DNA of 64,000 nt from Gammaproteobacteria bacterium (GTDB lineage: Bacteria; Pseudomonadota; Gammaproteobacteria; Thiohalomonadales; Thiohalomonadaceae), in assembly GCA_024709225.1 (NCBI GenBank), contig JANJXC010000042.1:50438-114437 (forward strand). The letters run 5' to 3'. Positions 4,249 through 55,779 of the stretch are shown piece by piece. Each line of letters opens with the position of its first letter. Position 1 is the first letter of the stretch. The notes under the pieces were generated by a model that saw nothing but the letters and a program-made list of their open reading frames with translations, was not told the origin of the DNA and ran no database searches. Made by a program: the position numbers and the translations under genes.

Positions 4249-5940
4249 TTACTGCTTGGTGGCGTTGATCTCGGCCTCGGGGTTGTCGAAGCCCAGCTTG
4301 TAGCCCAGCGATACATGGTGATAGCGGCCGTTGGTATGGTCGTCATGGATCGCAAAGCCGATGTTGTACATCTGATCCAGCGCGAGGCTGTGATCACCGG
4401 CGGCAGAGGAACTCAGCTTGCGCTTCATGCTCACCACCCAGTTGCCACCCTGCTTCTCGCCGACAAACTCGACGCCCTGACCACCTTCCATCACGCGATC
4501 AGCCAGCAGATAGCCGTCCTCGGACTTGCCGCTGCCGGCCTTGTAGCGCAGCAGGTCCATGAAGTGGCCGGCCTTCAGCTCGGCGGTAATATCGCCGTCA
4601 GACTTGCGCTTGTCCCAACCACCCATCGGTTCGCTGGTGGAGAGCTCCGTGCGGCTCTCGGCGATGTATTTGGTGACATTCTTGCCGGCTGGCGCGTCAG
4701 GCATGCCGTTGGCATCGTGGTGGCAAGTACCCCAGCAGCCGGCCTGCGCCGCTTCCTGCACATCATCGTTGGCGATCATCAGGGCGAGTTTGACAGCATT
4801 TTCCTTGTCCATCATGCCGCCATCGACGAAGGGTACCGGCACGTGGGCGGTATCCGGCCAGGTGAAGCGCATGTACAGGTGATCACCGTCATGGGTGGCC
4901 TGAATCTGTACCGGTACGCCGGGACGCTTGCCGGGGATCGGCGTGGTCTCGGCCTTTTCGCCAGTGACCATCTTGGTGCCCATGGCCTCCTGTTCGCCCT
5001 CGTGGCAGGCAACGCAGCGATCGCCGACCTTTTTGTAGACGCGGGCACCACCGTGCTTGGAGCCGGTGAGGGCCCACTCCATGGAGGTCTGGCCCGGATA
5101 GAACAGCATCACGTCACGGCTGGAGGCCTTGCTCCAGTCGACCTTGATGCCGCCGCCGGAGGCGGCTTTGGTCGGGGCCTTGGCGGCCGGCGCGGCAGCG
5201 GTCTGGGCCGGTGCCGGGGCAGACTCCACAGCGGGCGCCGCCGCGGCAACCGGTGCCGGTGCAGGTGCTGCGGCCGGGGCATTCATCTTTTCGCGGTAGG
5301 CCACCCACTGCGGCGGCAGCTCACGCTTGTAGGCCGCATTGGGCTTCTCCAGTGCCTCGACCTCTTCATCGGTCAGCTGATCATTGACCTTCTTGTGGGC
5401 GATGCCCTTGTGGCAGTCGATGCAGGTCTGGCCCTGCTCCATGGCGAAGATGTGCTGTTTGGCCGAGCGCTGCTTCTGGTTCTCCGGATTCATGGAGTCC
5501 CAGTCGTGGCAGTTGCGGCATTCGCGTGAATCCGTGTTCTTCATCGCCTTCCAGACGTTCTGCGCCAGGCGCATGCGATGCTGGTCAAATTTTTCCGGCG
5601 TGTCGACGGTGCCGAGGATCTTGTGCAGGACCTCGTTGCTCGCCTGGATCTTGCGCACCATCTTGTGCACCCAGGGATCCGGCACGTGGCAATCGGGGCA
5701 GGTGGCGCGTACGCCGCTGCGGTTGGTGAAATGCACCGTATGGGTGTATTCCTGATAGACGTTCTGCTCCATCTCATGACAGGAGATGCAGAATTCCATA
5801 TTGTTCGTGGCTTCCATGGCGGTGTTGAAACCGCCCCAGAAGATGACGCCAACTACCATGAAAAACAGTGCCGCGCCGATGGTTGCACCGAACAGCACTT
5901 TGCGCGAAAAGAAGGGCGTTTTTTGCTTTAAATTGTCCAT
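4249..5940 (-). CDS. NapC/NirT-family tetrahaem cytochrome with C-terminal haem-binding domain (ethylbenzene-dehydrogenase-like), six haem-binding motifs in total
   Basis: N-terminal TM anchor and four CxxCH (CISCH, CPDCH, CRNCH, CIDCH); Ala/Pro-rich linker; C-terminal part with CVACH and CX3CH (CWGTCH). Confidence 0.85.
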   Translation of the reverse strand: MDNLKQKTPFFSRKVLFGATIGAALFFMVVGVIFWGGFNTAMEATNNMEFCISCHEMEQNVYQEYTHTVHFTNRSGVRATCPDCHVPDPWVHKMVRKIQASNEVLHKILGTVDTPEKFDQHRMRLAQNVWKAMKNTDSRECRNCHDWDSMNPENQKQRSAKQHIFAMEQGQTCIDCHKGIAHKKVNDQLTDEEVEALEKPNAAYKRELPPQWVAYREKMNAPAAAPAPAPVAAAAPAVESAPAPAQTAAAPAAKAPTKAASGGGIKVDWSKASSRDVMLFYPGQTSMEWALTGSKHGGARVYKKVGDRCVACHEGEQEAMGTKMVTGEKAETTPIPGKRPGVPVQIQATHDGDHLYMRFTWPDTAHVPVPFVDGGMMDKENAVKLALMIANDDVQEAAQAGCWGTCHHDANGMPDAPAGKNVTKYIAESRTELSTSEPMGGWDKRKSDGDITAELKAGHFMDLLRYKAGSGKSEDGYLLADRVMEGGQGVEFVGEKQGGNWVVSMKRKLSSSAAGDHSLALDQMYNIGFAIHDDHTNGRYHHVSLGYKLGFDNPEAEINATKQ

Positions 5941-5979
5941 GCTGAATTTCCCCCGGACGTAGGCACTGATTTACGGCAG

Positions 5980-6009
5980 AAAAAAGGCGGGATGATCGCT
6001 CATCCCGCC
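5980..6009 (-). terminator. Intrinsic terminator downstream of nirS
   Basis: Minus strand GGCGGGATGA-GCGA-TCATCCCGCC followed by T6; lies between nirS stop and the NirT-like gene. Confidence 0.8.
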
Positions 6010-6028
6010 TTGTATTATGCCTACACCA

Positions 6029-7687
6029 TTAAGTCACATGGTGGCTGCGGTTGTGGACGTTGAACTTGCCGGTCGGCGCAAAGAGACCCTTGATGCGCTT
6101 TTTCTCCTGCAGGGTCTTGGCGTCGAACACGACGATTTCACCGTTGTCGGTCTTGGAGTCCTTGCGGTTCCAGACCGAGGCCCACACTTCGCTGCCGTCG
6201 GCGTTGAACTCGAAGTGCACCGCGACGTAGCCTTCCGTGTTGGTCAGGCGGATGGTCTTGGCGACCTTGCCGGTCTTCTTGTCGATGACCTTGACGGACT
6301 GCTGGATCTCCGGCTCCGGATGCAGGGTCTGGTCAACCCACACGTAGTCGCTCTTCGGATGGGTACGCACGAACAGGCCCGGGCCATCGGTCTGCGTTTC
6401 GTAGCAGATCTTCCACGCCTTGTCCTTGTTCTTGGCCGGGTCGTTGCCCCACACGGTCAGCTTGCCGACGCCGAGGTGCGGCGTGCCGCCCACCGGACCG
6501 CACTTGGGATCGTTCCAGTTGGCGCCGGGACCCGGATGCGGACGCTTGTCGGTATCGATGATCGCTTCCAGCTTGCGGGTCTTGCTGTCAATGACCACCA
6601 TCTGGTTGGAGGCATTGGCAGCGATCTGGAAGTAGCGACCGGTCGGATCGAAGAAACCATCGTGCAGGAACTTGGAGTTGTCGATCTTGTCGATGCGCAG
6701 ATTGTCGATGTCGGAGTAGTCCACCTGCCAGGTCTGGCCCAGCTCCTTCATGTTGACCAACCAGGTCGGGGCGTTGGGCGTATCGTAGATAGCCGCGACG
6801 CGCGACTCGTTGACGTAGTCGCCATCAACGTTGACACCGCGGGAGGACACCACCTTGAGCGGGTCCAGGGTCTTGGCATCCATGATGACGAAGTGCGGCG
6901 GCCAGTAACCGCCACCGACCACGTACTTGCCATCACCGGATACGGCGATGTCGCGGGCGTCATAGGCGATCTGGGTCTCGGCGACCAGCATCTTGTCGGG
7001 GGTCTGCCACAGGTCGATCTTGGTCACCTTGCCGTCACGGCCCATGGTGTACCAGAAGCGGCCGATGTCCTTCGGGTTCTCCGGCTTGACCACCTTGTTG
7101 GCTTCCAGCGCCTTCAGCACGTGCACGGCGTAGCCGGTGGGGATGTGGGTGATGACTTCCTTCTTGTCGCCGTCGATAACGGCCACCTTGCCGACGTCAC
7201 GCTCGATGACGACGAAGAAGTTTTCCCAGTTGCGACCGTGCAGCGGCTTGGTCGGGTAGTCCTTCAGCGGAACGTGGACCTTGGTGCGGGCCTTCATCTG
7301 CGCCAGCGACATCTCGGGCGGAACCGGTGCCTCCATCTGGATGTAGGTGGCCAGCATCTTGATGTCTTCCTTCGACATGATGCCGTCGAAGTTGTTCATG
7401 CCGCCCTCAGTACCGAAGGCGATGATGCGTTCCAGACGCTGCTGACCGAGCTTCTTGGTGTTGGCCGGCTCGAGGTTCTTGCCGGTGGCACCCTTGCGCA
7501 GCACGCCATGGCAACCTGCGCACTGCTGGAAGTACAGCAGCTTGGCACGTTCGAAATCCGCCTCGGAGAGGGTGGGGCCTGCAGCAGCGGCGGCAGCGGC
7601 ACCGCCGCTGAACGTCACTGCGCCGCCCACCAACAAAGCGGACAGTACAGCTGAGTAGGTCTTGCTTAGCTTCAATTTCCTTGACAT
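6029..7687 (-). CDS. nirS: Cytochrome cd1 nitrite reductase
   Basis: MSRKLKLSKTYSAVLSALLVGG signal; CAGCHG haem c; long cd1 propeller (GRDGKVTKIDLW, HLGVGKLTVWGNDP, LFAPTGKFNVHNRSHHVT); start at 7687 after AGGGGG-type SD. Confidence 0.97.
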   Translation of the reverse strand: MSRKLKLSKTYSAVLSALLVGGAVTFSGGAAAAAAAGPTLSEADFERAKLLYFQQCAGCHGVLRKGATGKNLEPANTKKLGQQRLERIIAFGTEGGMNNFDGIMSKEDIKMLATYIQMEAPVPPEMSLAQMKARTKVHVPLKDYPTKPLHGRNWENFFVVIERDVGKVAVIDGDKKEVITHIPTGYAVHVLKALEANKVVKPENPKDIGRFWYTMGRDGKVTKIDLWQTPDKMLVAETQIAYDARDIAVSGDGKYVVGGGYWPPHFVIMDAKTLDPLKVVSSRGVNVDGDYVNESRVAAIYDTPNAPTWLVNMKELGQTWQVDYSDIDNLRIDKIDNSKFLHDGFFDPTGRYFQIAANASNQMVVIDSKTRKLEAIIDTDKRPHPGPGANWNDPKCGPVGGTPHLGVGKLTVWGNDPAKNKDKAWKICYETQTDGPGLFVRTHPKSDYVWVDQTLHPEPEIQQSVKVIDKKTGKVAKTIRLTNTEGYVAVHFEFNADGSEVWASVWNRKDSKTDNGEIVVFDAKTLQEKKRIKGLFAPTGKFNVHNRSHHVT

Positions 7688-7777
7688 GGTTGTTGCCCCC
7701 TGCGGGTTGTGGAAAGTCCGTGACAAAAAGCCTCGTTTGTTCTGTGACTTTTTTACTCAGCTAAAAGACCTACAGCC

Positions 7778-15570: not shown

Positions 15571-16968
<1,398 letters not shown>

Positions 16969-17403
16969 TTAACCCTGGACGTTTGGCGGCCAATTGGCGG
17001 CATTGATCTCTGAGGTGTACTTCAGGAACTCAGCCACGGCCTCCAACTCTTCGTTGGAAAGGTTGAACTGCGGCATGCTGCGCCGACCCGGAATGCCTTC
17101 TACCGGGCGGCTGGCGATGAAGCCCATGATGGCTTCCTTGCTGCCGCCGAAACGGGTGTAGACATTACCCAGTTCCGGTGCGAAGTAGGCGCCTTCACCC
17201 AACAGGGTATGGCAACCCAGACAATTGTTTTCCTCCCATACTTTCTTGCCCAATGCCACCTGCGGCGTGATGTTCTGACGATTATCACGCTTGGGCAGCG
17301 CCCCTAATGTGTCGAAAGACAAGGCCAGAAACAGGAGGAAGAAAAATACACTGCCCCCCAGATATATGTTTCTGGCCATGCTTTTTGTAAAGGTTTCACT
17401 CAT
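16969..17403 (-). CDS. norC: Nitric oxide reductase cytochrome c subunit
   Basis: N-terminal TM anchor, NNCLGCHTLLGEGAYFAPELGNVYTR, directly upstream of norB. Confidence 0.96.
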   Translation of the reverse strand: MSETFTKSMARNIYLGGSVFFFLLFLALSFDTLGALPKRDNRQNITPQVALGKKVWEENNCLGCHTLLGEGAYFAPELGNVYTRFGGSKEAIMGFIASRPVEGIPGRRSMPQFNLSNEELEAVAEFLKYTSEINAANWPPNVQG

Positions 17404-23618: not shown

Positions 23619-24625
23619 TCAAATACCCGCGGCGGGCAGATAGCTGTCCAGCAGTTGCAGATAGTTGGCGCGGGCGTAGGCCGAGGCGTTGCCGGTATGC
23701 CGCTGGCTCAACACCCCCTTCAGTTGTTCCACCGACTCGTACGGACTTTCCTCCAGCCACTGTTCCATGCCGCGCAGGATCTGCGTCAGGCGTTGCGGGC
23801 CGTGCAGCAGCAGGGCGCTGCACAGGTGCACCACATCGGCGCCGGCAAGCAGCATCTTCACGGCGTCGGCAGGGGTGTGCACGCCGCCGGTGGCGGCCAG
23901 GGTGAGTTTGACGTGGCCGTGCAGGATGGCTATCCAGCGCATGGCCAGCAGGGACTCGGCGGAGGTGGACAGGTGCAGCTGCGGCGCCACGCGCAGGCTG
24001 TCGATATCGATGTCCGGCTGGTAGAAGCGATTGAACAGGCTGACGCCATTGGCCCCGGCCTGTTCCAGCCGGCGCACCATGTTGGCCACCGAGCTGAATT
24101 GCGGCGACAGCTTCATGGCGATGGGCAGGCTGACGTGCCGGCGCAGTTCGGTGAGCAGGTCGACGTAGCGTTGCTCCACCTCGGCGCCGCTGACCTCCGT
24201 GTCGCCTGCCACGTAATACACATTCAGCTCCAGCGCATCGGCGCCGGCCTGCTGCAGTGCCGTGCCATAGTCGATCCAGCCGCCGGGCGTGATGCCGTTG
24301 AGGCTGGCGACGACGGGGATATCCAGGCTCTGTTTCAGGCGCTGCAACTGCTCCAGATAGCGCTCCTGCTTCGACGGCATGTCGCCATGCAGGGGCAGGA
24401 AGCTGGTGGCCTCGGCGTGGCCCAGGCTCTGGTTGTGGAGGTATTCATCCATCACCATGTGGTCGTGCTGCATCTCCTCTTCGAACACCGAATACATCAC
24501 CAGCGCGGCGGCGCCGGCATCCTCCAGCCGCCTGGCGGCATCGAGGCTGCGCGACAGCGGCGAGGCCGAAGGCACCAGCGGGTTTTTCAGTTCCAGGCCG
24601 AGATAGCTTGTGCGCAGGTCCATGA

Positions 24626-24629
<4 letters not shown>
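23619..24629 (-). CDS. Dihydroorotate dehydrogenase-like (class 1) flavoprotein
   Basis: MDLRTSYLGLELKNPLVPSASPLSRSLD; KLSPQFSSVANMVRRLEQAGANGVSLFNRF; TGGVHTPADAVKMLLAGADVV; overlaps nifJ end. Confidence 0.88.
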
Positions 24630-28225
<3,596 letters not shown>

Positions 28226-28306
28226 CGTATCCTCCGTTGTTGTGCGGACCGTTGTGTCCGGTCCTGCGGCCAAGCATAGCCCAGATCGGCGGTATTAACT
28301 CATCGG

Positions 28307-28444
28307 TCGCGGATGCGATCCGCTCCTACGGTACGTGGCCCATGCCGGGGCGCATGGCATTCGCGCTGGAGCGGTGGCTCCGCCCGGCGGTGTATCGCCG
28401 ATGCGATCCGTGCAGCCCATGTAGGAGCGAATCGTATTCGCGAC
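28307..28444. repeat. Two half-copies of the GTAGGAGCGA palindromic repeat flanking a diverged spacer
   Basis: TCGCGGATGCGATCCGCTCCTAC (28307-28329) and GTAGGAGCGAATCGTATTCGCGA (28421-28443). Confidence 0.75.
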
Positions 28445-28461
28445 AGCCGGAGCCTCGATGC

Positions 28462-29391
28462 TCAATGCACCCCCATCAGCACCTTGATGTGCGCAGCGGC
28501 GCTGCGGCCCAGGGCATTCATCACGTAGCCGCCCTCCAGTGTCGAGACGACGCGGTTTGCGCAGTGGACGGCGGCGAGATCCATGATGCGCTCGGTGACC
28601 CAGGCGTAGTCGGTGTCGAGCAGGTTGAGGCCGGACATGTCGTCCTCGAAGTGAGCATCGAAGCCGGCGGAGACCAGGATCAGCTGCGGCTTGAAGCGGT
28701 CGACCGCGGGCAGCCACTGTTCGGTGATCGCCTGCTGGAACTCCTCGCTGTAGGCGCCGTTGCGCAGCTTGCTGTGGATCAGGTGGGGGCGTTCGGCCAG
28801 CGGCGTGTCCGGATAGAACGGGTGCTGGAAGCTGGAGCAGAACAGCACGCGCGGGTTGTCCCTGAAGATGTCTTCGGTGCCGTTGCCGTGGTGGGCATCG
28901 AAGTCGAGGATGGCAACCCGTTGCAGACCGTGGTGCTCCAGTGCGTGGGCGGCAGCGACGGCGATGTTGTTGAAGAAGCAGAAGCCCATGGCGCGGTGGC
29001 GTTCCGCATGGTGGCCGGGCGGGCGCACGCCGCAGAAGGCGGTTTCCATTTCCCCGCTCATCACCAGGTCGACGCCGAGTACGGCGGCACCGGCGGCGTG
29101 CAGTGCGGCCTCGAGGGTGTGCGGCGCGAGCCAGGTGTCGGGGTCGAGCATGACCGGTGACTGGCCGGGCGGCGGCGCGCGGGTGAACAGGTCGTCGACA
29201 TAGGCGGCGTCATGCACGCGCAACAGCTGGGCGCGTTCGGCGCGGGGCGCATCGTAATGACGCAACAGCGGCATCAGCTGCGAGGCCACCAGCCGATCCT
29301 CGATGGCGTGCAGCCGTTCGGGGCTTTCCGGATGGAAGCCACCCATGTCGTGTAACAGACAGTCGCGGTGGGAAATATAGGCAGTGCGCAT
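28462..29391 (-). CDS. Histone deacetylase-family (AcuC/class II-like) deacetylase
   Basis: FHPESPERLHAI, FCGVRPPGHHAERHRAMGFCFFNNIAVAA, ILDFDAHHGNGTEDIF, LILVSAGFDAHFEDDMSGLNL. Confidence 0.93.
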   Translation of the reverse strand: MRTAYISHRDCLLHDMGGFHPESPERLHAIEDRLVASQLMPLLRHYDAPRAERAQLLRVHDAAYVDDLFTRAPPPGQSPVMLDPDTWLAPHTLEAALHAAGAAVLGVDLVMSGEMETAFCGVRPPGHHAERHRAMGFCFFNNIAVAAAHALEHHGLQRVAILDFDAHHGNGTEDIFRDNPRVLFCSSFQHPFYPDTPLAERPHLIHSKLRNGAYSEEFQQAITEQWLPAVDRFKPQLILVSAGFDAHFEDDMSGLNLLDTDYAWVTERIMDLAAVHCANRVVSTLEGGYVMNALGRSAAAHIKVLMGVH

Positions 29392-29517
29392 GGGGTCGGC
29401 CGGACGTGGGGGTACGTTTCAAGGTATCACCGGCATCGGTATCTGGCTACCACGGAATTCGATCCGGGCGAGGCAGATTTGTGGTGATCAACTGTGCTTA
29501 AATGAAGGCTTGCCTGA

Positions 29518-32220
29518 ATGATAGAAAAACTGGGGAACGTCATGGGACAACATTTTCTGAAAAAGCTTTTCGAACCCAAATCCGTGGTTATTTTCGGCGC
29601 CAGCGATCGCCCCGATGCGGTGGGCGCGCTGGTGTTCAAGAACATGCTGGAAAGCGGTTTCAAGGGCGATGTCTATCCCATCAATCCCAAGCGTGACGTG
29701 GTGCAGGGGCAGAAGGCCTATCCCTCGCTGGAGGCGCTGGGCAAGACCATCGACCTGGCCGTCATCACCACTCCGGCCCACACCATTCCCGCCATCATCG
29801 AGGACTGCGGCCAGCACGGCGTCAAGGCGGCGGTGATCATCTCCGCCGGTTTCCGCGAGGTGGGGCCGCAGGGCATGAAGCTGGAGAAGGCGGTGCTGGA
29901 GAATGCGCGCCGCTACGGCATCCGCTTCATCGGCCCCAACTGTCTCGGCATCATGCGCCCCGACATCGGCCTCGACGTCACCTTCAACAAGGGCGGCGCG
30001 AGGCCGGGCAACGTGGCCCTGGTGTCCCAGTCCGGCGCCATCTGCACCGCCATCCTCGACTGGGCGGCGCCCAACGGCATCGGCTTCTCCGCTGTGGTGT
30101 CCACCGGCATCTCCGCCGACCTCGATTTCGGCGACGTGCTCGACTACCTGGTCAACGACCCCAAGACCGACAGCATCCTGCTGTACATCGAGGGCATCCA
30201 CAATTCGCGCACCTTCATGAGCGCCGTGCGCGCCGCCTCGCGCGTGAAGCCGGTGCTGGCGCTCAAGGTGGGCCGCCATACCTCGGGTTCCAAGGCCGCC
30301 ATGTCCCATACCGGCGCCCTGGCCGGGGCCGATGATGTGTTCGATGCGGCGCTGCGCCGCGCCGGCGCGGTGCGCGGCATGCGCATCGGTCACCTGTTCT
30401 CCAACGCCAGCACGCTGGATGCGGGATTCCGCGCCAGGGGCGAGCGGCTGTGCATCCTGACCAACGGCGGCGGGCCGGGCGTGATGGCATCGGACCGCGC
30501 GGCGGACCTGGGCATTCCCTTGGCTGAACTGACGGAGGCCACCCTGGCCCGTCTCAACGAGGCGCTGCCGGCCACCTGGTCCCACGGCAACCCGGTGGAT
30601 GTCATCGGTGATGCCACGGCGGAACGCTATTCCGCCGCGGTCGATGCCTGCCTGGCCGATCCCGGCGTGGATGGTCTGCTGGTGATCCTGACGCCGCAGG
30701 CGATGACGGCGCCCAACGAGGTGGCCGCCGCGGTGGGGGCCATTGCCCGCCAGCACAAAAAACCGGTGCTGTGTTCCTGGATGGGACAGACCCAGGTGGC
30801 GGAAGGCCGCGCCACGCTGGTGCAGGCGGGACTGCCCATCTTCCATACCCCGGAGGCGGCAGTGGAGGCCTTCGCCTCGCTGACGGCGTATTACCGCAAC
30901 CAGCAGCTGCTGCTGCAGGCACCGGGTCCCATCTGGCAGAGCGTGCCGCCCGACGTGGAGGGCGCGCGCCTGATCATCGAGGGCGCCCTGGGCGAGGGAC
31001 GCAAGGTGCTGTCGGAAAGTGAATCCAAGGCGATCCTCGGCTGCTTCCACATCCCCTCGGCGCGGGCGGTGGTGGTGCGTTCGCCCAACGAGGCCCTGGT
31101 GCAGGCCGCCTCCATGGGGCTGCCGGTGGCCATGAAGATCAACTCGCCCGACATCACCCACAAATCGGACTCCGGCGGCGTGCGCCTCGGCATCAACACC
31201 GCCCAGGGCGTGCGCAGTGCCTATAACGACATCATCACCGCCGTGCGGCGCAACCGGCCCGAGGCGCGCATCGATGGCATCACCGTCGAGCCGATGCTGC
31301 AACGCCCCAACGGCCGCGAGCTGCTGGTGGGCATCTCCACCGACGCGGTGTTCGGCCCGGTGATCACCTTCGGCGCTGGTGGCATCACGGTGGAGGTGAT
31401 GGGCGACCGCGCGGTGATGCTGCCGCCGCTCAATCGCTTCCTGGCCAAGGATCTGATCCAGCGCACCAAAGTGGCCAAGATGCTGGCCGCCTTCCGCCAC
31501 ATGCCGGCGGCGGACATGCTGGCGCTGGAGAATGTGCTGCTGCGCGTATCGGAGATCGCCTGTGAGCTGCCCTGGGTCAAGGAGCTGGACATCAACCCGC
31601 TGATCGTTGACGACAGCGGCGCCATCGCGGTGGATGCACGCGTGGTGGTCGATTATCACAACGCGACCCACGAGCGCTATGACCACATGGCGATCTATCC
31701 CTATCCGAACCAGCTGGTCACCCGCTGGCAGCTGCCCGACGGCACCGACCTGGTGATCCGGCCAATCCGGCCGGAGGATGCAGAGATCGAACAGGAGTTC
31801 GTGCGCAAGCTGTCCGATCAGACCAAGTACTTCCGCTTCATGCAGACCATCGACGAGCTGACGCCGTCGATGCTGGCCCGCTTCACCCAAATCGATTACG
31901 ACCGCGAGATGGCCTTCATCGCGGTGGTGGAGAAGGATGGTGGCGAGGAGGAGATCGGCGTATCGCGCTATGTCACCAATCCCGATCGCACTACCTGCGA
32001 GTTCGCCGTCGTGGTCTCCGATGCCTGGCAGCGCAAGGGCATCGCCCACCGCCTGATGGATGCGCTGATCGAAACCGCGCGCCTGCGCGGCCTGCGCCTG
32101 ATGGAGGGGGAGGTGCTGGGGAACAACCACGACATGCTGTCCTTCGTGCGTGCCCTGGGCTTCTCGGTCAGCACCAGTGTGGAAGACCCGGCCATCAAGT
32201 ATGTGTGCAAGGAGCTGTGA
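29518..32220 (+). CDS. ADP-forming acyl-CoA synthetase/GNAT acetyltransferase fusion (Pat-like)
   Basis: CoA-binding domain (SVVIFGASDRPDAVG), succinyl-CoA ligase-like SHTGALAG, ATP-grasp region, C-terminal GNAT (WQRKGIAHRLMDALIETARLRGL); 900 aa. Confidence 0.92.
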   Translation: MIEKLGNVMGQHFLKKLFEPKSVVIFGASDRPDAVGALVFKNMLESGFKGDVYPINPKRDVVQGQKAYPSLEALGKTIDLAVITTPAHTIPAIIEDCGQHGVKAAVIISAGFREVGPQGMKLEKAVLENARRYGIRFIGPNCLGIMRPDIGLDVTFNKGGARPGNVALVSQSGAICTAILDWAAPNGIGFSAVVSTGISADLDFGDVLDYLVNDPKTDSILLYIEGIHNSRTFMSAVRAASRVKPVLALKVGRHTSGSKAAMSHTGALAGADDVFDAALRRAGAVRGMRIGHLFSNASTLDAGFRARGERLCILTNGGGPGVMASDRAADLGIPLAELTEATLARLNEALPATWSHGNPVDVIGDATAERYSAAVDACLADPGVDGLLVILTPQAMTAPNEVAAAVGAIARQHKKPVLCSWMGQTQVAEGRATLVQAGLPIFHTPEAAVEAFASLTAYYRNQQLLLQAPGPIWQSVPPDVEGARLIIEGALGEGRKVLSESESKAILGCFHIPSARAVVVRSPNEALVQAASMGLPVAMKINSPDITHKSDSGGVRLGINTAQGVRSAYNDIITAVRRNRPEARIDGITVEPMLQRPNGRELLVGISTDAVFGPVITFGAGGITVEVMGDRAVMLPPLNRFLAKDLIQRTKVAKMLAAFRHMPAADMLALENVLLRVSEIACELPWVKELDINPLIVDDSGAIAVDARVVVDYHNATHERYDHMAIYPYPNQLVTRWQLPDGTDLVIRPIRPEDAEIEQEFVRKLSDQTKYFRFMQTIDELTPSMLARFTQIDYDREMAFIAVVEKDGGEEEIGVSRYVTNPDRTTCEFAVVVSDAWQRKGIAHRLMDALIETARLRGLRLMEGEVLGNNHDMLSFVRALGFSVSTSVEDPAIKYVCKEL

Positions 32221-46896: not shown

Positions 46897-47403
46897 CTAC
46901 GAAGTCTGCAGGGCCTGCAGGATCCCCTGCATCAGGGCCAGCGGTGTGGGCGGACAGCCGGGAATGACGGCATCCACCGGGATGACATTGCTCACGGCAC
47001 CGCGGCTGGCATAGGAACAGCCGAACTCGCCGCCGCAGGCGGCACAGTCGCCGGCGGCGATCACCAGCTTGGGGGCCGGCGTGGCCTCCCAGGTGCGCAG
47101 CAGGGCGGTTTCCATGTGCACCGACACCGGCCCGGTGACCAGCAGCACATCGGCGTGGCGCGGCGAGGCGACGAAGTGGACGCCGAAACGTTCAATGTCG
47201 TAGTAGCCGTTGTTGAGGGCGTGGATCTCCAGCTCGCAGGCGTTGCAGGAACCGGCATCCACCTGGCGGATGGCGAGGCTGCCCTGAAACTGCCGGGCGA
47301 TACCCGCGCGCAACTGTGCACCCACCTGTTCCAGCACCGGCTCGCGCGGCAGGTCTTCGGTGATGAGCCCGGTCTGACGGATCTTGTTGAGGATTCTTAG
47401 CAT
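46897..47403 (-). CDS. Group-4 hydrogenase-type small subunit (HyfI/HycG/NuoB-like)
   Basis: GSCNACELEIHALNNGYYDIERFG, AAGDCAACGG, GCPPTPLALMQGIL: proximal 4Fe-4S cluster cysteines retained. Confidence 0.92.
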   Translation of the reverse strand: MLRILNKIRQTGLITEDLPREPVLEQVGAQLRAGIARQFQGSLAIRQVDAGSCNACELEIHALNNGYYDIERFGVHFVASPRHADVLLVTGPVSVHMETALLRTWEATPAPKLVIAAGDCAACGGEFGCSYASRGAVSNVIPVDAVIPGCPPTPLALMQGILQALQTS

Positions 47404-47429
47404 CGGCGATTACCGGGGGTAAAAAAAAC

Positions 47430-47532
47430 TGTCGCAGAGGCGCAGAGATGCGGAGATTGGAATACAGATGCTCGGGTAACGCAGCGTGAGTGTTCGAACA
47501 ACCAACTCTGCGGCTCCGCGCCTCTGCGGCAA
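47430..47532. repeat. CGCAGAGGCGC inverted-repeat element between the two hydrogenase-like subunit genes
   Basis: GTCGCAGAGGCGCAGAGATGCGGAG...CTCTGCGGCTCCGCGCCTCTGCGGC. Confidence 0.75.
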
Positions 47533-47549
47533 TTGTGTGTTCCCATACA

Positions 47550-49133
47550 TCACAGGTCGTGCCCCGAGTAGGAACCATTCACCGATTTGTTGCAGACGGG
47601 GAAGTCGGGGACGATGTTGCCGTGAATGAGCAGTTCCAGTGCCGGCCAGTTGAACCAGCTCGGGTCGCGCGGGAAGTAGCGGGCGATGCGGCCGTCGCTG
47701 CCGAAACGCACGTAGCTCAGGATCTCGCCGCGCCAGCCTTCCACTAGGCCGATGCCCTCGCTGCCGGCGGCAGGCGCCTGCCACGGTACCTGCACCGCGC
47801 CGTCGGGCAGGGTATCGAGCAGCACCACCAGCAGTTCCAGCGAGTCGAGGATCTCCTGCATGCGCACCTGCATGCGCGCCGCCACGTCACCGGTGGTGAA
47901 TAGCGGTGAGCTGACGTGCAGGCGGTCATACGGGGCGTAGGGATGGTCGCGGCGCAGGTCGTGGTCCTGGCCGCTGGCCTTGCCCACGTAGCCTAGGCAG
48001 CCGAGGCGTTGGGCCTGTTCGGCGCTCAGCACGCCGGTGGTGGCGAGACGGTCCTCCAGCGAGGGGTGGTCGTCGAGGATCGGGTACAGCGCGGCCAGTT
48101 CACGGCGCAGCGGGTCGATGGCGGCACGCAGCTGCGCAATCTGCGCAGCGGACGGATCGGTGGCGAGGCCGCCGGGAACGATGCAGTCCATCAGCATGCG
48201 ATGGCCAAAACAGGCGGCATTGTCACGCAGCCACAGTTCGCGCAGGCGGGCGAACTGCTGCCAGGCGAAGGTGAAGGCGACGTCGTTGCAGATGGCGCCG
48301 ATGTCGCCGAGATGATTGTGTATGCGCTCGCGTTCGGCCAGCACGGCACGCAGGGCCTGCGCGCGTGGCGGCACGGCGAGGTGCGCCGCGCGCTCCATCG
48401 CCATGCAGGCAGACCAGGCGTAGTGCACCGTGCTGTCGCCGGACACGCGGCCGGCGAGGCGTGCGAGCCCCTGCGCGTCGCGCCCTTCGGCGATCTTCTC
48501 GATGCCCTTGTGCACGTAGCCGAGGCGCTGCTCCAGGTTGAGCACCGTCTCGCCCACCGCCTGAAAGCGGAAGTGCCCCGGCTCGATGATGCCGGCGTGT
48601 ACCGGCCCCACCGGAATTTCATAGGCACCGGCGCCCTGGGTCTGTATGAACGGATAATCCTGTTCCGGCGCGGCGGGCAGCGGTGCGCTGCCGACGGCGA
48701 ACTCCTTGCGCAGCGGATAGCTGTCGGCGGCCCAGCGGTTGTGGCGGCTCCAGCGGCGCGGATCGGGATGGTCGCTGAACACCAGGCCGTGCATGTTCTG
48801 CACGTGGCGCTCCATGCGATCGGCGCCGGGGTAGTACTGGGTGTGCGAGGGCAGCAGCGGCGTGCTCAGTGGTACCTGGGTGCGCAGCAGCAGGTGATCG
48901 CCATCGCGTGCCAGCGCTGCCGTAACCATCAGTTCCGCATCGCGCTGCTCGGCCCACACCCCGGCCCAGCGGCAGGCATAGCCGGCCGCCACCTGTGCGG
49001 CGCGGCCCCAGTCTTCCGGATCGATTTCCAGCAGGTGCGCCGGCGCCAGCGCCGTGGCCGCGCCGCGCCGCACCAGGATGTGTTCGTCCTGATAGCGGGC
49101 GAGGAGTTCGGACAACCAGTCGAAGTGGCTCAT
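47550..49133 (-). CDS. Group-4 hydrogenase-type large subunit lacking Ni ligands (HyfG/HycE-like, Ehr-type)
   Basis: N-terminal NuoC-like plus large-subunit domain (GPVHAGIIEPGHFRF, LGYVHKGIEKIAEGRD); L1 RVCGIC replaced by RVSGDS, C-terminal DPCxxC replaced by NGSYSG. Confidence 0.9.
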   Translation of the reverse strand: MSHFDWLSELLARYQDEHILVRRGAATALAPAHLLEIDPEDWGRAAQVAAGYACRWAGVWAEQRDAELMVTAALARDGDHLLLRTQVPLSTPLLPSHTQYYPGADRMERHVQNMHGLVFSDHPDPRRWSRHNRWAADSYPLRKEFAVGSAPLPAAPEQDYPFIQTQGAGAYEIPVGPVHAGIIEPGHFRFQAVGETVLNLEQRLGYVHKGIEKIAEGRDAQGLARLAGRVSGDSTVHYAWSACMAMERAAHLAVPPRAQALRAVLAERERIHNHLGDIGAICNDVAFTFAWQQFARLRELWLRDNAACFGHRMLMDCIVPGGLATDPSAAQIAQLRAAIDPLRRELAALYPILDDHPSLEDRLATTGVLSAEQAQRLGCLGYVGKASGQDHDLRRDHPYAPYDRLHVSSPLFTTGDVAARMQVRMQEILDSLELLVVLLDTLPDGAVQVPWQAPAAGSEGIGLVEGWRGEILSYVRFGSDGRIARYFPRDPSWFNWPALELLIHGNIVPDFPVCNKSVNGSYSGHDL

Positions 49134-49144
49134 GGTTTACACCT

Positions 49145-49216
49145 GTAGGAGCGAGTCGTATTCGCGACCGGCGTGCCTCCGCCCGACGCTGTATCGCGGA
49201 TGCGATCCGCTCCTAC
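49145..49216. repeat. 72-bp GTAGGAGCGA palindromic repeat
   Basis: GTAGGAGCGAGTCGTATTCGCGACC...TATCGCGGATGCGATCCGCTCCTAC. Confidence 0.88.
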
Positions 49217-49227
49217 TATGTAAGCAC

Positions 49228-50709
49228 TCATAACACCCCCTGGCCGGCGATGAGCTGCGTGGCCTGATCGAACCACTGCGCCAGCACGGCGGGGATGGCA
49301 AGGCCGAACCACAGCGCCAGCAGCAGGTGCAGGTACACCGGCAGCATGTTGGCCTTCACCGGTTGCTGGCCGTCGGGCTGGTTGCCATAGACCATCGGAT
49401 GAATGTGGCGGAACAGGCCGGCGAAGGCGATGGCAAGGCCCGACAGCAGGGCCACGGTGAGCCACGGCCAGCTTTGCATGGTGGCGATGAGCAGCAGAAA
49501 TTCGCTGACGAACAGGCCGAAGGGCGGGAAGCCGGCGATGGCGGCAGTACCGAGCAGCAGGCCCCAACCGACGGTGGGCTGGGTGCGGATCAGGCCGCGG
49601 ATCTTGTCGATGGCCTGGCTACCGGCGATGTGCGTGGCATGGCCGACGGTGACGAAGATGGCGGACTTGACCAGCGAGTGCATGGTCATGTGCAGCAGGG
49701 CGGCAAAGGTGGCGAGCGGACCACCCAGGCCGAAGGCGAAGGTCATCAGCCCCATGTGCTCGATGGAGGAATAGCTGAACATGCGCTTGATGTCACGCTG
49801 ACGGTGCAGGAACAGCCCGGCCACCAGGAAGGAGAGCAGGCCGAAGGCCATCATCAGGTAACCGGCCAGTTGCGGCGTGTTGGACACGCCGTGCAGTGCA
49901 CCATCCACCAGCATCTTGGTGCGTACCACCGCGTACAGCGCCACGTTGAGCAGCAGGCCGGAGAGCACCGCCGACATGGGTGTTGGGCCTTCGGAGTGCG
50001 CATCGGGCAGCCAGTTGTGCAGCGGCACCAGGCCGACCTTGGTGCCGTAGCCCACCAGCAGGAACACGAAGGCGATGCTCATCACCGTGGGGTCGAGCTG
50101 GCCGGCGATGCCGTGCAGCGTGGTCCACAGCAGGCCGTCCTCCGGTACGGTCAGCACCGAGGCGGCGGAAAAATACAGCAGTACCGTGCCGAACAGTGCC
50201 TGCGCGATACCGACGCCGCAGAGGATGAAATACTTCCACGCCGCCTCCACCGATTCCGGTGTGCGGTACAGCGACACCAGCAGCACGGTGGCCAGGGTAG
50301 CGCCTTCCAGCGCCACCCACAGGATGCCCAGATTGTTGGTGGACAGCGCCAGCAGCATGGTGAACAGAAAGCCCTGATACATGGCGTGGTACAGGCGCAT
50401 GCGGCGGCTGTTGACACGGCCCAGTGCCAGCTCGTGGTCCATGTAGGGACGGGAGAAGATGGCGGTGGTGGTGGCGACGAAGGCGGTGAGCACCAGCAGG
50501 TAGACATTGAAGGCATCGACGTAGAAGAACTTGCCGTTCGACAGCAGCGGCCCGTCACGCAACACCTCGAGTGCGAGCACCACCGAGGCCAGCGTAGTGG
50601 CGGCGGCGAAGGCCACATTGATCCAGCCGGCGATGCGGCAGCGCGGCACCGCCGCCATCAGCAGCGTGCCGAGCAGGGGGATGAGCAAGGTAGCGAGCAG
50701 GGCGTTCAT
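49228..50709 (-). CDS. Proton-translocating NuoN/HyfF-like membrane subunit
   Basis: PLHNWLPDAHSEGPTPMSAVLSGLLLNVALYAVVRT, SSIEHMGLMTFAFGLGG, FPPFGLFVSEFLLL. Confidence 0.92.
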   Translation of the reverse strand: MNALLATLLIPLLGTLLMAAVPRCRIAGWINVAFAAATTLASVVLALEVLRDGPLLSNGKFFYVDAFNVYLLVLTAFVATTTAIFSRPYMDHELALGRVNSRRMRLYHAMYQGFLFTMLLALSTNNLGILWVALEGATLATVLLVSLYRTPESVEAAWKYFILCGVGIAQALFGTVLLYFSAASVLTVPEDGLLWTTLHGIAGQLDPTVMSIAFVFLLVGYGTKVGLVPLHNWLPDAHSEGPTPMSAVLSGLLLNVALYAVVRTKMLVDGALHGVSNTPQLAGYLMMAFGLLSFLVAGLFLHRQRDIKRMFSYSSIEHMGLMTFAFGLGGPLATFAALLHMTMHSLVKSAIFVTVGHATHIAGSQAIDKIRGLIRTQPTVGWGLLLGTAAIAGFPPFGLFVSEFLLLIATMQSWPWLTVALLSGLAIAFAGLFRHIHPMVYGNQPDGQQPVKANMLPVYLHLLLALWFGLAIPAVLAQWFDQATQLIAGQGVL

Positions 50710-51410
50710 TCGCGCTCTTCCTGCGGTTCGTCCAGTTCAGAGGTCTCCGCCAGGCGGCTCAAGCGGTCCACGTCCAGCGAGTCGATGCTCTGGCGGATCT
50801 GGAAGAAGAACACGCCGAAGATCACCGTCGCCACCAGCAGGTCGAAGGCCACGCCCAGTTCCACCACCATCGGCATGCCGTGGGTGGACACCACCGCGGC
50901 GAAAAACAGACCGTTTTCCATCGACATGAAACCCACCACCTGGGTGATGGCCTGACGTCGCGTCACCATGATCAGCATGCCGAGCAGCACCACGGCCATG
51001 CTGATGGCGATGGTGTTGCGCGTGGCCAGGGTGGAGAGTTTCTCCACCGGCAGCGCGACGTAATAGCTGAAGGCCACCAGCGCGGCGGCAGCGAGCAGCA
51101 CCAGCGCGGGATTGACCACGGTTTCCACCTCGCGCGTGATCTCCAGCTTCACCACGATACGGTGCAGGACCCATGGAATCAGCACGGCCTTGAGTGCCAG
51201 GGTGATCAGCGCCGACACATACAGATGATGTTGATTGGCGACCAGGGCTACCATCGCGGTGGCAGCAGCGACCAGCGCACCTTGCCAGGCGAAGGCGTGG
51301 ATGCAGGCGATGATGCGTGTCTGCGCCAGCAAGGCGAAGGAGGCGAATAGCACCAGGGCGGCGAGGATCACCACGCCCTGTTCCTGCAGGGTGAACTGGG
51401 CGAAGTTCAT
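50706..51410 (-). CDS. HyfE-like membrane subunit
   Basis: MNFAQFTLQEQGVVILAALVLFASFALLAQ...VGFMSMENGLFFAAVVSTHGMPMVVELGVAFDLLVATVIFGVFFFQI. Confidence 0.9.
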   Translation of the reverse strand: MNFAQFTLQEQGVVILAALVLFASFALLAQTRIIACIHAFAWQGALVAAATAMVALVANQHHLYVSALITLALKAVLIPWVLHRIVVKLEITREVETVVNPALVLLAAAALVAFSYYVALPVEKLSTLATRNTIAISMAVVLLGMLIMVTRRQAITQVVGFMSMENGLFFAAVVSTHGMPMVVELGVAFDLLVATVIFGVFFFQIRQSIDSLDVDRLSRLAETSELDEPQEERE

Positions 51411-52372
51411 GCCCCCACCTCCAGGATCACATGGCTCAGCATGCCGAGCAGGGCGAACAGGAAGGCGAGGTTGAGATAGCCCGGCACGCGGAACAGGCGC
51501 ATCTTGGCGAGCACGGTTTCCGACACCGCCAGCACCACGCACAGCAGCATCAGCTTGCCGGCGATGGCGCCGAGGCCGACTAGCAGGGCGGTGGGGGTGT
51601 TTTCCACGGCGATGCCCCAGGGTAAGAAGATGTTGGCGATGAGCACGCCGTAGATCATCAGCTTGAGCTGCGCCGCCCATTCCATCAGGGCGAGGTGGCG
51701 GCCGCTGTATTCGAGGATCATCGCCTCGTGCACCATGGTCAGTTCCAGGTGGGTGGTGGGATTGTCCACCGGCACGCGCCCGGTCTCCGCCACCGCCACC
51801 AGCAGCAGGGCGAGCAGGGCGAACATGAACGAGGGGCGCAGCACGACGCCTTGCGCCAGCAGGAAGTCGATGGCGTGGGAGAGGTTGGTGCTCTGCGCCG
51901 TCATGGTGAGGGTGAACACGGCCATCAACATGGCCGGCTCGGCCAGCGACGCGATGGTCATCTCGCGCGACGAGCCCATGCCGCCGAAGGCGGTGCCCGC
52001 ATCCATGCCGGCGAGGGCGAGAAAGAAACGGGCCAGGCCGAGAAAACCCACCAGCACAATGACGTCGGCGATGATGGCGGTGGGCAGATGCACGGCCAGC
52101 AGCGGAATCACCGCGGCAGTGACCACGGTGGCGGAGAACACCACATAGGGCGCGGCACGGAACAGCGGCGAAGCGGTGTCGGCAACGATGGCCTCCTTGC
52201 GGAACAGCTTGGTGAGGTCGCGGTAGGGCTGGGTCAGTGCCGGGGCACGGCGGTTCTGCAGGCGTGCCTTGAGCAGGCGCAGCCAGCCCACCAGCAGCGG
52301 TGCCGCGGTGACGAACAGCGCCGTTTGCAGCAACGCCAGCAGCCAGCCTTGCAGGTTCAGGAGATCAGCCAT
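51407..52372 (-). CDS. HycD/HyfC/NuoH-like membrane subunit
   Basis: MADLLNLQGWLLALLQTALFVTAAPLLVGWLRLLKARLQNRRAPALTQPYRDLTKLFRKE...ETGRVPVDNPTTHLELTMVHEAMILEYSGRHLALMEWA. Confidence 0.94.
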   Translation of the reverse strand: MADLLNLQGWLLALLQTALFVTAAPLLVGWLRLLKARLQNRRAPALTQPYRDLTKLFRKEAIVADTASPLFRAAPYVVFSATVVTAAVIPLLAVHLPTAIIADVIVLVGFLGLARFFLALAGMDAGTAFGGMGSSREMTIASLAEPAMLMAVFTLTMTAQSTNLSHAIDFLLAQGVVLRPSFMFALLALLLVAVAETGRVPVDNPTTHLELTMVHEAMILEYSGRHLALMEWAAQLKLMIYGVLIANIFLPWGIAVENTPTALLVGLGAIAGKLMLLCVVLAVSETVLAKMRLFRVPGYLNLAFLFALLGMLSHVILEVGA

Positions 52373-54372
52373 AGCAGGAAGATCAATGTGAAGAAGGAGT
52401 ATGACAGGTAGGTGCGCACGTTGCCGCTTTGCAGCAGGGCGATACGGCGTGCGGCACTGATTACCCAGCGGCCGGCAGGTTCGTACAGGACCTTCCAGCT
52501 GCGGTCGGTCACCAGCAATTGATGACGCAGGCTGGTGAGCTGGCCGCTCTTGTCGTCGCTGAGGCGTTCCACCTTTTCCTCCAGCAGCCACACCGGCTGG
52601 AAGATGCGTCGCACCGGCTGGGCAAAGGCGGTGGCGGTGTATTGCATGCGCGGACTCAGCGGGCCGAAGCCGCAGTCCCAGGGATGGATGCGGCGCACGC
52701 GCTGGTGGTTGCGGCCGTGCAGCAGCAGATAGAACAGCAGCCAGGCGAGTCCCAGACCGAGCAGCACCAGCGGTGCGCTGTAGCTGGCGGCCGCCGCCGA
52801 GACCGGCGTCAGCCACAGCCAGCCCTGACCGGTGATGCCCGGCTCGGGCAGGCCGCCCAGGGCCTGGGGAATGGCGCCCATCACGTCGATGCTCAGGGCC
52901 GGCAGTACGCCGAGCAGCAGGCACAACAGCGCCAGCAGACCTTGGGCGGCGCGCATGCCGAAGGAAGGCAGGTGGGCCTGACGTGCCTGGCGCGTGCGCG
53001 GCTGGCCGAGGAAGGCGATGCCGTACAGGCGCACGAACAGCATGGCGCCGAGGGCGGCGGTGAGCGCCAGCATGGCGGCGGTGACCGGGATGACGATGCG
53101 CAGCACGCCACTGTCCAGCACCACGCCCTGCAGGGCGGTCTGCAGGGTCAGCCACTCGGAGGCGAAGCCGTTGAACGGCGGCAGCGAGGCGATGCTGAGG
53201 CAGCCGATGAGGAAAAAGGTACCGGTGTAGGGCAGACGCTTCAGCAGGCCGCCCATGTGTTCCAGGCTGTGCTGGTGGGTCTGCTGGATCACCGCACCGG
53301 CGCCGAGGAACAGCAGGCTCTTGAACAGGGCGTGGTTGAGGGCGTGATACAGCGCGGCGATGAGGCCCAGGCTGCCGAGCAGCGGGTGGCCGGAGGCGAG
53401 GAAGATAATGGCCAGTCCCAGGGCCATGAAGATCACGCCGACGTTCTCGATGGATGAGTAGGCCAGCAGGCGCTTGATGTCGGTCTGCTGCATGGCGTAG
53501 AGCACGCCGAGCAGGGCGGAGAGGCTGCCTGCCAGCAGCACGATGACGCCCCAGTCCACCTGCACCGTGCCGATGAGATCGAAGGTGACGCGCACGAAGC
53601 CGTAGATCGCCACCTTGAGCATCACGCCGGACATCAGCGCCGAGATGTGCGACGGCGCCACCGGATGGGCCTCGGGCAGCCAGGCATGCAGTGGCACCAG
53701 GCCGGCTTTCATGCCGAAGCCGAAGAAGGCGAGGGCGAAGGCCACGCCGGCCCACAGCTGCGGCAGCTCCGCGGCGCGCATCGCCTCGAAGGTGAAGCCG
53801 CCGCCGAAGGCGGCCAGCACGCCGTAGCCGAGCAGGATGGCGAGGCCACCGACGTGGGCCATCAGCAGATACAGGAAGGCGGCGCGGCGGTTGGCGGCAT
53901 TCTCGTGCTGGAAGGCCACGAGGAAGTAGCTGGACAGCGACATCAGCTCCCACGCCACCATGAACATAAAGGCGTCGTCGGCGATGACCACCAGCTGCAT
54001 GCCGGCCACGAACAGACCGGTGAACACGCCGAGGGCGGCAAGGGAGTGGCGTCCGTGCAGGAACTCGCGGGTGTAGCCGGGACCGAAGACGGCAACGGCG
54101 AATACCACCACGCCGATGAGCAGCAGGATGAAGCCGGCGAGGGCATCGACCCGCACCGACCAGGCCAGCCAGGGCAGGCCGAGGGGGAGCTGGGCGGCGG
54201 CGGGTTCACCGGTCAGCGCCAGCAGACCACCGGTGGCGGCGGCCAGACCGGACAGCCCAAGCAGGGGGAAGCAGGCCCAGCGCAGTAGCTGCCGGTAGCG
54301 GCTGGCGGCCAGCCCCACGACTCCCGACAACAGGGACAGCGCCACGGCATAGGCAATCAGCTGCAGGGCCAC
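52357..54372 (-). CDS. HyfB/HycC/NuoL-like antiporter-type membrane subunit
   Basis: 671 aa; ELMSLSSYFLVAFQ, PLHAWLPEAHPVAPSHISALMSGVMLKVAIYGFVRV, YSSIENVGVIFMALGLA, LPPFNGFASEWLTLQ. Confidence 0.94.
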   Translation of the reverse strand: MALQLIAYAVALSLLSGVVGLAASRYRQLLRWACFPLLGLSGLAAATGGLLALTGEPAAAQLPLGLPWLAWSVRVDALAGFILLLIGVVVFAVAVFGPGYTREFLHGRHSLAALGVFTGLFVAGMQLVVIADDAFMFMVAWELMSLSSYFLVAFQHENAANRRAAFLYLLMAHVGGLAILLGYGVLAAFGGGFTFEAMRAAELPQLWAGVAFALAFFGFGMKAGLVPLHAWLPEAHPVAPSHISALMSGVMLKVAIYGFVRVTFDLIGTVQVDWGVIVLLAGSLSALLGVLYAMQQTDIKRLLAYSSIENVGVIFMALGLAIIFLASGHPLLGSLGLIAALYHALNHALFKSLLFLGAGAVIQQTHQHSLEHMGGLLKRLPYTGTFFLIGCLSIASLPPFNGFASEWLTLQTALQGVVLDSGVLRIVIPVTAAMLALTAALGAMLFVRLYGIAFLGQPRTRQARQAHLPSFGMRAAQGLLALLCLLLGVLPALSIDVMGAIPQALGGLPEPGITGQGWLWLTPVSAAAASYSAPLVLLGLGLAWLLFYLLLHGRNHQRVRRIHPWDCGFGPLSPRMQYTATAFAQPVRRIFQPVWLLEEKVERLSDDKSGQLTSLRHQLLVTDRSWKVLYEPAGRWVISAARRIALLQSGNVRTYLSYSFFTLIFLLWLIS

Positions 54373-54649
54373 GTCGGGTCAGGCTCCGGAAGGTGTTGGA
54401 TTACACAAGCAAAAGATTATGGTCATTATAAGCATTTTGTTGTTTGTGGCGATGAGGCGATAAGTTTTATTTTGTAGCCTCTTCCTGGCTGCAACCCCAC
54501 CGGCAGATCCTGTGTAACAATGTAAAGCTATTGATTTATATACTAAAGTTTACGTAACGCACAGGAAGAAAAATCAGATTTTTCCTACATACATGCCCTG
54601 CGCCGCTTGCTACCTTGATTGGGAATCCGTTCCTTGTGGAGCTGACATC

Positions 54650-55287: not shown

Positions 55288-55779
55288 TCAGTAGATGGGG
55301 ATCATCGCGTAGCCCTGCGCCTGATATCCGGTGAGGGAGACGAAGGTGTTGCCGACGGGGGAGATGCCTTCGAGCAGGGTGGCGTTGTCGACCTGGAACA
55401 GGCGGGTGGCGATGGAGCAGCCTTCCATGCGCACGCCAAGTCGGCGCAGGGCGGCGATCTGCTCCGCCACCTGATCGAGCTGCTCGAATTCGGTCAGTTC
55501 GAAGCGCTCGCGGTCGCTGGAAACCAGGGTGACGGCCAGGCCGCGGAAGGCGAGGATGATGTCCGGACGTACGCCCTGGCGCTTGAGGTCGTCATGGGTC
55601 TCGCGGATAACCGCGAGATACAGGTTCAACCGTCTGGCGTCGGAGGCGTTGATATCGAATACCACCTTGCCGTGCTTGACGCCGTGCAGTGCGGTGGCGT
55701 CATTGGGCTTGTCAGCCAGGGCCATGTTGGTGGACAGGGCCAGGACGAGGGAAACCAACCAATACCTTAACGAATTCAT
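55288..55779 (-). CDS. Exported DsrE-family-like protein
   Basis: Signal MNSLRYWLVSLVLALSTNMALA; KVVFDINASDARRLNLYLAVIRETHDDLKRQGVRPDIILAFRGLAVTLV...LGVRMEGCSIA. Confidence 0.7.
   Translation of the reverse strand: MNSLRYWLVSLVLALSTNMALADKPNDATALHGVKHGKVVFDINASDARRLNLYLAVIRETHDDLKRQGVRPDIILAFRGLAVTLVSSDRERFELTEFEQLDQVAEQIAALRRLGVRMEGCSIATRLFQVDNATLLEGISPVGNTFVSLTGYQAQGYAMIPIY

Follow-up and report, generated by a model that had tools for sequence, protein, structure and literature searches.

A nickel-less, Hyf-type membrane complex of the Ehr family in a Thiohalomonadaceae genome and its possible link to ferredoxin

What does a membrane complex built like a hydrogenase do once its nickel site is gone? 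The question is raised by six minus-strand genes (46897-54372) in a window of 64,000 nucleotides (nt) from a gammaproteobacterium of the Thiohalomonadaceae (contig JANJXC010000042.1), in which a first-pass annotation had recognised an energy-converting hydrogenase-related (Ehr) module. Judged from gene content and alignments, the complex almost certainly belongs to the Ehr family (ehrABCDLS, the gene set as named in PMC6688271), and it is tentatively read here as a Hyf-type (group 4a-like) complex that may have been turned into a ferredoxin-linked, ion-translocating oxidoreductase making no H2. The subunit families were called with Pfam and NCBIfam profiles which, together with the coordinates of the open reading frames, confirmed the proposed gene order (HyfB-, HycD-, HyfE-, HyfF-, HyfG- and HyfI-like). 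The genes and the sites discussed below are the following:

52357-54372, minus strand: ehrA, HyfB-like antiporter-type membrane subunit, 671 amino acids, GTG start; NF005086 (hydrogenase 4 subunit B), 1.9e-247, over cut-off
51407-52372, minus strand: ehrB, HycD (NuoH)-like membrane anchor, 321 amino acids; PF00146 (NADHdh), 1.4e-38
50706-51410, minus strand: ehrC, HyfE-like membrane subunit, 234 amino acids; NF008556, 2.5e-24, under its cut-off
49228-50709, minus strand: ehrD, HyfF-like antiporter-type membrane subunit, 493 amino acids; NF005045 (hydrogenase 4 subunit F), 1.1e-227, over cut-off
47550-49133, minus strand: ehrL, HyfG-HycE-like large subunit (NuoC and NuoD domains), 527 amino acids; PF00329 (Complex1_30kDa) and PF00346 (Complex1_49kDa)
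46897-47403, minus strand: ehrS, HyfI-HycG (NuoB)-like small subunit, 168 amino acids; PF01058 (Oxidored_q6), 3e-29
48432-48449, minus strand: L1 motif RVSGDS (EhrL residues 229-234), replacing RVCGIC, from alignments
47562-47579, minus strand: L2 motif NGSYSG (EhrL residues 519-524), replacing DPCYSC, from alignments
48582-48584, minus strand: E184 codon of ehrL, equivalent to MbhL E21 and HycE E193, from alignment and residue mapping

The nickel site was evaluated by profile alignment to HycE and in a family alignment extended by the E. coli proteins HycE and HyfG, and HycE C241, C244, C531 and C534 were found opposite EhrL S231, S234, S521 and G524, as the first-pass annotation had proposed by eye. 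No intact CxxC was found at L1 or L2, cysteine occurring at the four ligand positions in 2, 2, 0 and 0 of 118 homologues, and a sequencing error is excluded as the source of the loss by similar motifs in a sister genome and in other homologues of the unbiased sample. Across the family alignment the substituted site is itself conserved, with R229 and D233 invariant in 118/118 homologues, Ser at position 231 in 92%, Ser or Thr at 234 in 96%, Ser at 521 in 89% and Gly at 524 in 98%. Eighty of the loci had been fetched by the patterns HAG[IT]IEPG and DFP[VL][CI]NKS, a choice that by itself enforces part of their conservation in those stretches; in the unbiased homologue set, E184 was present in 31/31 aligned large subunits, and the RVSGDS-like and SYSG-like motifs were also kept. 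The equivalent of E184 in group 4 hydrogenases, MbhL E21, has been described as a catalytic-site glutamate (PMC7684303). When a profile of 31 homologues was compared with the PDB, the best match was E. coli HycE (7z0s_E, 7.6e-103), above MbhL and NuoD. The AlphaFold2 model of EhrL (mean predicted local distance difference test score 87.5) matched HycE over its whole length with a template modelling (TM) score of 0.93. EhrL ends at L527, opposite HycE R537, the residue after which HycE is cleaved during maturation, and the 32 further HycE residues have no counterpart in the family alignment; EhrL would thus be produced already at the processed length, its maturation tail having been lost.

The small subunit keeps its proximal-cluster cysteines, as the first-pass annotation had noted: the [4Fe-4S] ligands C53, C56, C120 and C150 of EhrS were invariant in sets of 28 and 36 aligned small subunits. 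C53 and C56 (CNAC spacing), C120 and C150 align gap-free to MbhJ, and this hydrogenase-length CxxC predicts four Cys ligands on the EhrS cluster by the criterion of PMC7684303. In a fold search, the predicted EhrS model matched HycG, MbhJ and NuoB, with identities of 45% to MbhJ and 42% to HycG. In the membrane arm, EhrA is 39% identical to E. coli HyfB, EhrD 42% to HyfF and EhrB 33-35% to HycD/HyfC. The E-channel Glu/Asp residues of EhrB (E196, D203, E210, E216 and E221) are conserved and agree with E. coli Hyf, EhrA E142, K222, K253 and E406 align with HyfB E142, K221, K252 and E407, EhrC K74, E165 and E184 with HyfE K68, E159 and E178, and the antiporter residues E135, K224 and E403 of EhrD are kept relative to HyfF. 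These Glu and Lys residues are consistent with an ion-translocating module. Relative to the sister genome G125, in which the large subunit is 88% identical, dN/dS values (nonsynonymous to synonymous substitution rates) were 0.07-0.16 for all six genes (ehrA 0.15, ehrB 0.07), and by this measure all six are under purifying selection. Together, the conserved replacement motif, the retained gate glutamate, the cluster ligands and the low dN/dS argue that Ehr is a working enzyme. The Ehr-type assignment made at the outset was upheld by the six-gene set, by a large subunit that resembles group 4 but lacks both CxxC motifs, and by the failure of [NiFe] hydrogenase features. In a tree, the EhrL homologues were monophyletic (99/99) and separate from HyfG/HycE.

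In the mechanism tentatively favoured, the donor, either reduced ferredoxin or a different soluble carrier of low potential, would dock directly on EhrS at the place of HyfH, and the proximal [4Fe-4S] cluster would relay electrons to a mobile partner, probably quinone-like, within the former NiFe cavity, lined by S231, D233, S234, S521, Y522 and K516, with protons supplied via E184. The redox step would drive H+ or Na+ through the E-channel and the HyfE-, HyfF- and HyfB-like subunits; in a possible reverse run, the membrane gradient might power ferredoxin reduction and so serve nitrogenase and enzymes like it. As to the earlier proposal of a proton- or sodium-translocating, non-hydrogenase module of redox or non-redox function, the first part agrees with the E-channel and antiporter residues; of the two functions, which had been offered on equal terms, the evidence favours redox.

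The strongest argument for linking Ehr to ferredoxin is its pattern of co-occurrence with nitrogenase, PFOR and Rnf. Ehr was found in 45 of 369 sampled genomes of the class, and a scan of named genomes gave at least 574 confirmed relatives; the family is widespread in Proteobacteria and Nitrospirota. In tests that were partly post hoc and whose statistics ignore kinship, NifH was found in 12/45 Ehr genomes vs 19/324 others (27% vs 6%, p=6.5e-5), or in 12/30 vs 12/152 after collapsing to families (p=3.5e-5), and PFOR in 16/45 vs 46/324 (36% vs 14%, p=0.001). A [NiFe] hydrogenase was present in 38% of Ehr genomes vs 20% of others, RuBisCO showed no association across the 369 genomes (51% vs 47%), and urease was not enriched (9/40 vs 14/35). 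RnfC was rarer with Ehr (22/40 vs 33/35, p=1.5e-4), the controls having been picked among RuBisCO carriers; restricted to RuBisCO-positive Ehr genomes, the values were 15/23 vs 33/35. A PFOR gene in the same window as ehr (24626-28273) was also counted for the ferredoxin-linked reading. Further support, short of proof, came from a second nickel-less group-4-like family, placed as the sister of EhrL on long branches, in which the small subunits at loci L077 and L078 carry a fused two-cluster ferredoxin domain, showing ferredoxin-type input in a near relative. Its large subunits are about 33% identical and its gene order is different; they lie at:

L076, 10345-11934: large subunit of the second NiFe-less family
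L077, 7070-8629: large subunit of the second NiFe-less family, with a DUF190 gene nearby
L078, 6924-8471: large subunit of the second NiFe-less family

Several points weigh against a ferredoxin-linked oxidoreductase. The co-occurrence is correlational and confounded by phylogeny and lifestyle, and a family search gave no NifH match in the source genome itself. Neither a redox-partner gene (about 115 loci) nor anything else redox-related (sets of 40 and 80 loci) was conserved beside the operon, and no HyfH/NuoI partner was found in the operon, the single NuoI of the genome belonging to the complex I operon. In a gap-free alignment, Nqo4 His38 and Tyr87 correspond to EhrL I183 and G232, so that both complex I quinone-headgroup ligands are absent.

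The main rival, because SulP genes are linked and partner genes missing, is a non-redox or redox-sensed ion transporter. In it the hydrogenase-like arm would be a relic with a structural or regulatory part, while the membrane arm would act as an Mrp-like antiporter or energise pH homeostasis and the uptake of anions such as bicarbonate or sulfate. It is rather improbable on the present evidence. The six genes form a closed unit without a redox partner, ehr has been listed among pH-homeostasis candidates (PMC6688271), and SulP/SLC26 adjoins ehrA upstream in several lineages. SulP/SLC26 was the commonest upstream Pfam family (11/99 neighbours), and in 8 Methylococcales loci it immediately precedes ehr in the same orientation, at in-operon positions (one subfamily, gap -3 to 257 nt), with a different subfamily upstream of ehr in a Thiobacillus metagenome-assembled genome (MAG; gap 7 nt) and in a betaproteobacterial MAG; for three independent adjacencies among 92 loci, P is about 2e-4 to 1e-3, assuming 2-4 SulP genes per 3500. 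However, most loci, the source locus included, have no SulP nearby, the RuBisCO association is absent, and the SulP proteins of both subfamilies fall well short of the cut-offs for BicA and DauA, whereas the invariance of the cluster cysteines and of residues in the cavity speaks for ongoing redox chemistry.

A ferredoxin:quinone oxidoreductase with a true complex I-like quinone site, analogous to a simplified photosynthetic-NDH or Fpo, is unlikely. The NuoC/D/B/H-like arm joined to an antiporter arm, the loss of the four Ni ligands as in complex I, a strong NuoD profile match and TM scores of 0.82-0.89 between the predicted EhrL fold and E. coli NuoCD all favour it; the Ile and Gly at the quinone-ligand positions, the absence of NuoI, the hydrogenase-type CxxC of EhrS in place of the adjacent CC of complex I and the higher bit score of EhrL to HycE (348) than to NuoD (about 175-190) do not. 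Less probable still is a reading of Ehr as an alternative to Rnf, a gradient-driven quinol:ferredoxin reductase that would feed low-potential electrons to nitrogenase and other ferredoxin enzymes in bacteria on high-potential donors, with ferredoxin docking directly on EhrS and a cavity around the invariant R229 and D233 replacing the NiFe site. It is very improbable that the proximal cluster itself reduces polysulfide or other sulfur species as in MBS, also a nickel-less group-4 relative without quinone ligands (PMC7684303): upstream of ehrA, at 0.9 kb, there is a DsrE-like gene, but MBS needs a motif three residues shorter, with one Fe lacking Cys, MBS has no equivalent of the E21 kept in EhrL, and its ferredoxin subunit MbsN has no counterpart at the ehr locus; MBS-type catalysis was rejected on the full-length CxxC of EhrS. 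That the complex is a functional [NiFe] hydrogenase, misread by error or using other ligands, is scarcely credible, family resemblance alone speaking for it and the recurrence of the substitutions in the sister genome and all homologues examined, the missing C-terminal extension, the lack of a linked hyp or protease gene and the genuine hydrogenases encoded elsewhere in the genome against it.

The layout and surroundings of the operon add the following. The HycD-like gene starts with ATG at 52372 and the HyfE-like gene at 51410, each inside a longer mechanical open reading frame; the first four genes overlap by 4-16 nt, and gaps of 94 and 146 nt precede ehrL and ehrS. Ahead of ehrA lies one further feature, found in a motif search that gave 1 match vs 1.3 expected, so that position alone favours it:

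54425-54452, minus strand: possible sigma-70 promoter TCGCCA-16-TATAAT, 53 nt ahead of ehrA

That no HyfH/HycF-like or hyp gene adjoins the operon, as the first-pass annotation had stated, was verified, and the genome-wide searches it had suggested were run. The only NuoI over the cut-off is encoded on contig C97, within the operon for complex I, the remaining matches being generic ferredoxins, and an orphan HyfH partner was thus rejected; HypD and a full-length [NiFe] large subunit lie on contig C26, unlinked to ehr, and a further hydrogenase-like locus on C28. Formate dehydrogenase, proposed as a link for other Ehr complexes (PMC6349859), was not among the listed neighbour families of ehr loci. 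An autotrophy or CO2-concentration role is disfavoured despite the SulP linkage, RuBisCO being without association.

A small helix-turn-helix regulator was found upstream at 21 loci, usually within 20 nt of ehrA. In Methylococcales (L099, 2094-13482, and the syntenic L105 and L094), SulP lies upstream and a DUF2490 gene and a histidine kinase/response regulator downstream of ehr; in betaproteobacterial MAGs (L109, 1074-3627; L116, 398-2617), a small conserved protein (cluster 96) and then SulP stand just ahead of ehrA. Spermine_synth matches also occur among the neighbour families. At loci L136, L139 and L146 an extra pair of large and small Ehr subunits closely precedes the complete operon (pattern 0-3, then 2-5-4-1-0-3), possibly an operon duplication. 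The DsrE-like protein (55288-55779), with a signal-peptide-like N terminus, recurs beside ehr in only 3/41 loci (also L043 and L046) and was rejected as a partner. Elsewhere in the window, 23619-32220 holds PFOR/NifJ, a DHO_dh-like gene, a histone-deacetylase-family gene and an ADP-forming acyl-CoA synthetase with a C-terminal GNAT domain, likely a pyruvate-to-acetate and reduced-ferredoxin cluster about 15-20 kb from the ehr operon. A cytochrome cd1-type protein and a NapC/NirT-type cytochrome with an ethylbenzene-dehydrogenase-like domain are encoded at 4249-7726 and 15571-17403, and NorC/NorB-like genes were recognised by eye only; the host is probably a denitrifier.

Ehr complexes have been described in Methylacidiphilum (PMC6688271), Sulfobacillus (PMC4378227) and comammox Nitrospira (PMC10284858) as well as Geobacter (Coppi 2005 as cited in PMC13194489; PMC7894505). 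A literature search for ehr mutants gave nothing relevant. The complexes are often annotated as hydrogenases or dismissed; their function was left open in six reports (PMC6349859, PMC10284858, PMC10432482, PMC4378227, PMC6688271, PMC7894505), and in another they were called nonfunctional (PMC13194489). What is new here are comparative clues, drawn from genomes, that may connect Ehr with ferredoxin chemistry and, in part of the bacteria that carry it, also with an anion transporter; specific, testable predictions for its function follow from the nitrogenase/PFOR association, the rarer Rnf, the sister family with its fused ferredoxin domain and the linkage to SulP.

With known Ehr complexes, the source complex shares the six-subunit set and the lack of a Ni-binding CxxC; the Geobacter prototype, compared by description, has a cluster listed as GSU0739-45 with two EhrA-type genes, and the Ehr label also spans other NiFe-less families with other gene sets (the L076-L078 type, Mbx/MBS). 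The closest characterised relatives are Hyf and Hyc (group 4a), which share the HycE fold (TM 0.93), the HyfB/HyfF-type arm, the four-Cys cluster and the gate glutamate (E184, HycE E193), but Ehr lacks their four NiFe cysteines, the C-terminal extension, equivalents of HyfA, HyfH and HyfD, the assembly proteins and the protease. Complex I has a homologous Q-module and membrane arm and likewise no NiFe cysteines, whereas Ehr is without NuoEFGI, His38/Tyr87 and the adjacent CC of the small subunit. The MBS (Mbx) of Pyrococcus, another relative of group 4 without NiFe, likewise has an arm that pumps ions (PMC7684303); it keeps two of the four NiFe cysteines, a three-Cys proximal cluster and MbsN, whereas Ehr has none of these but keeps E184.

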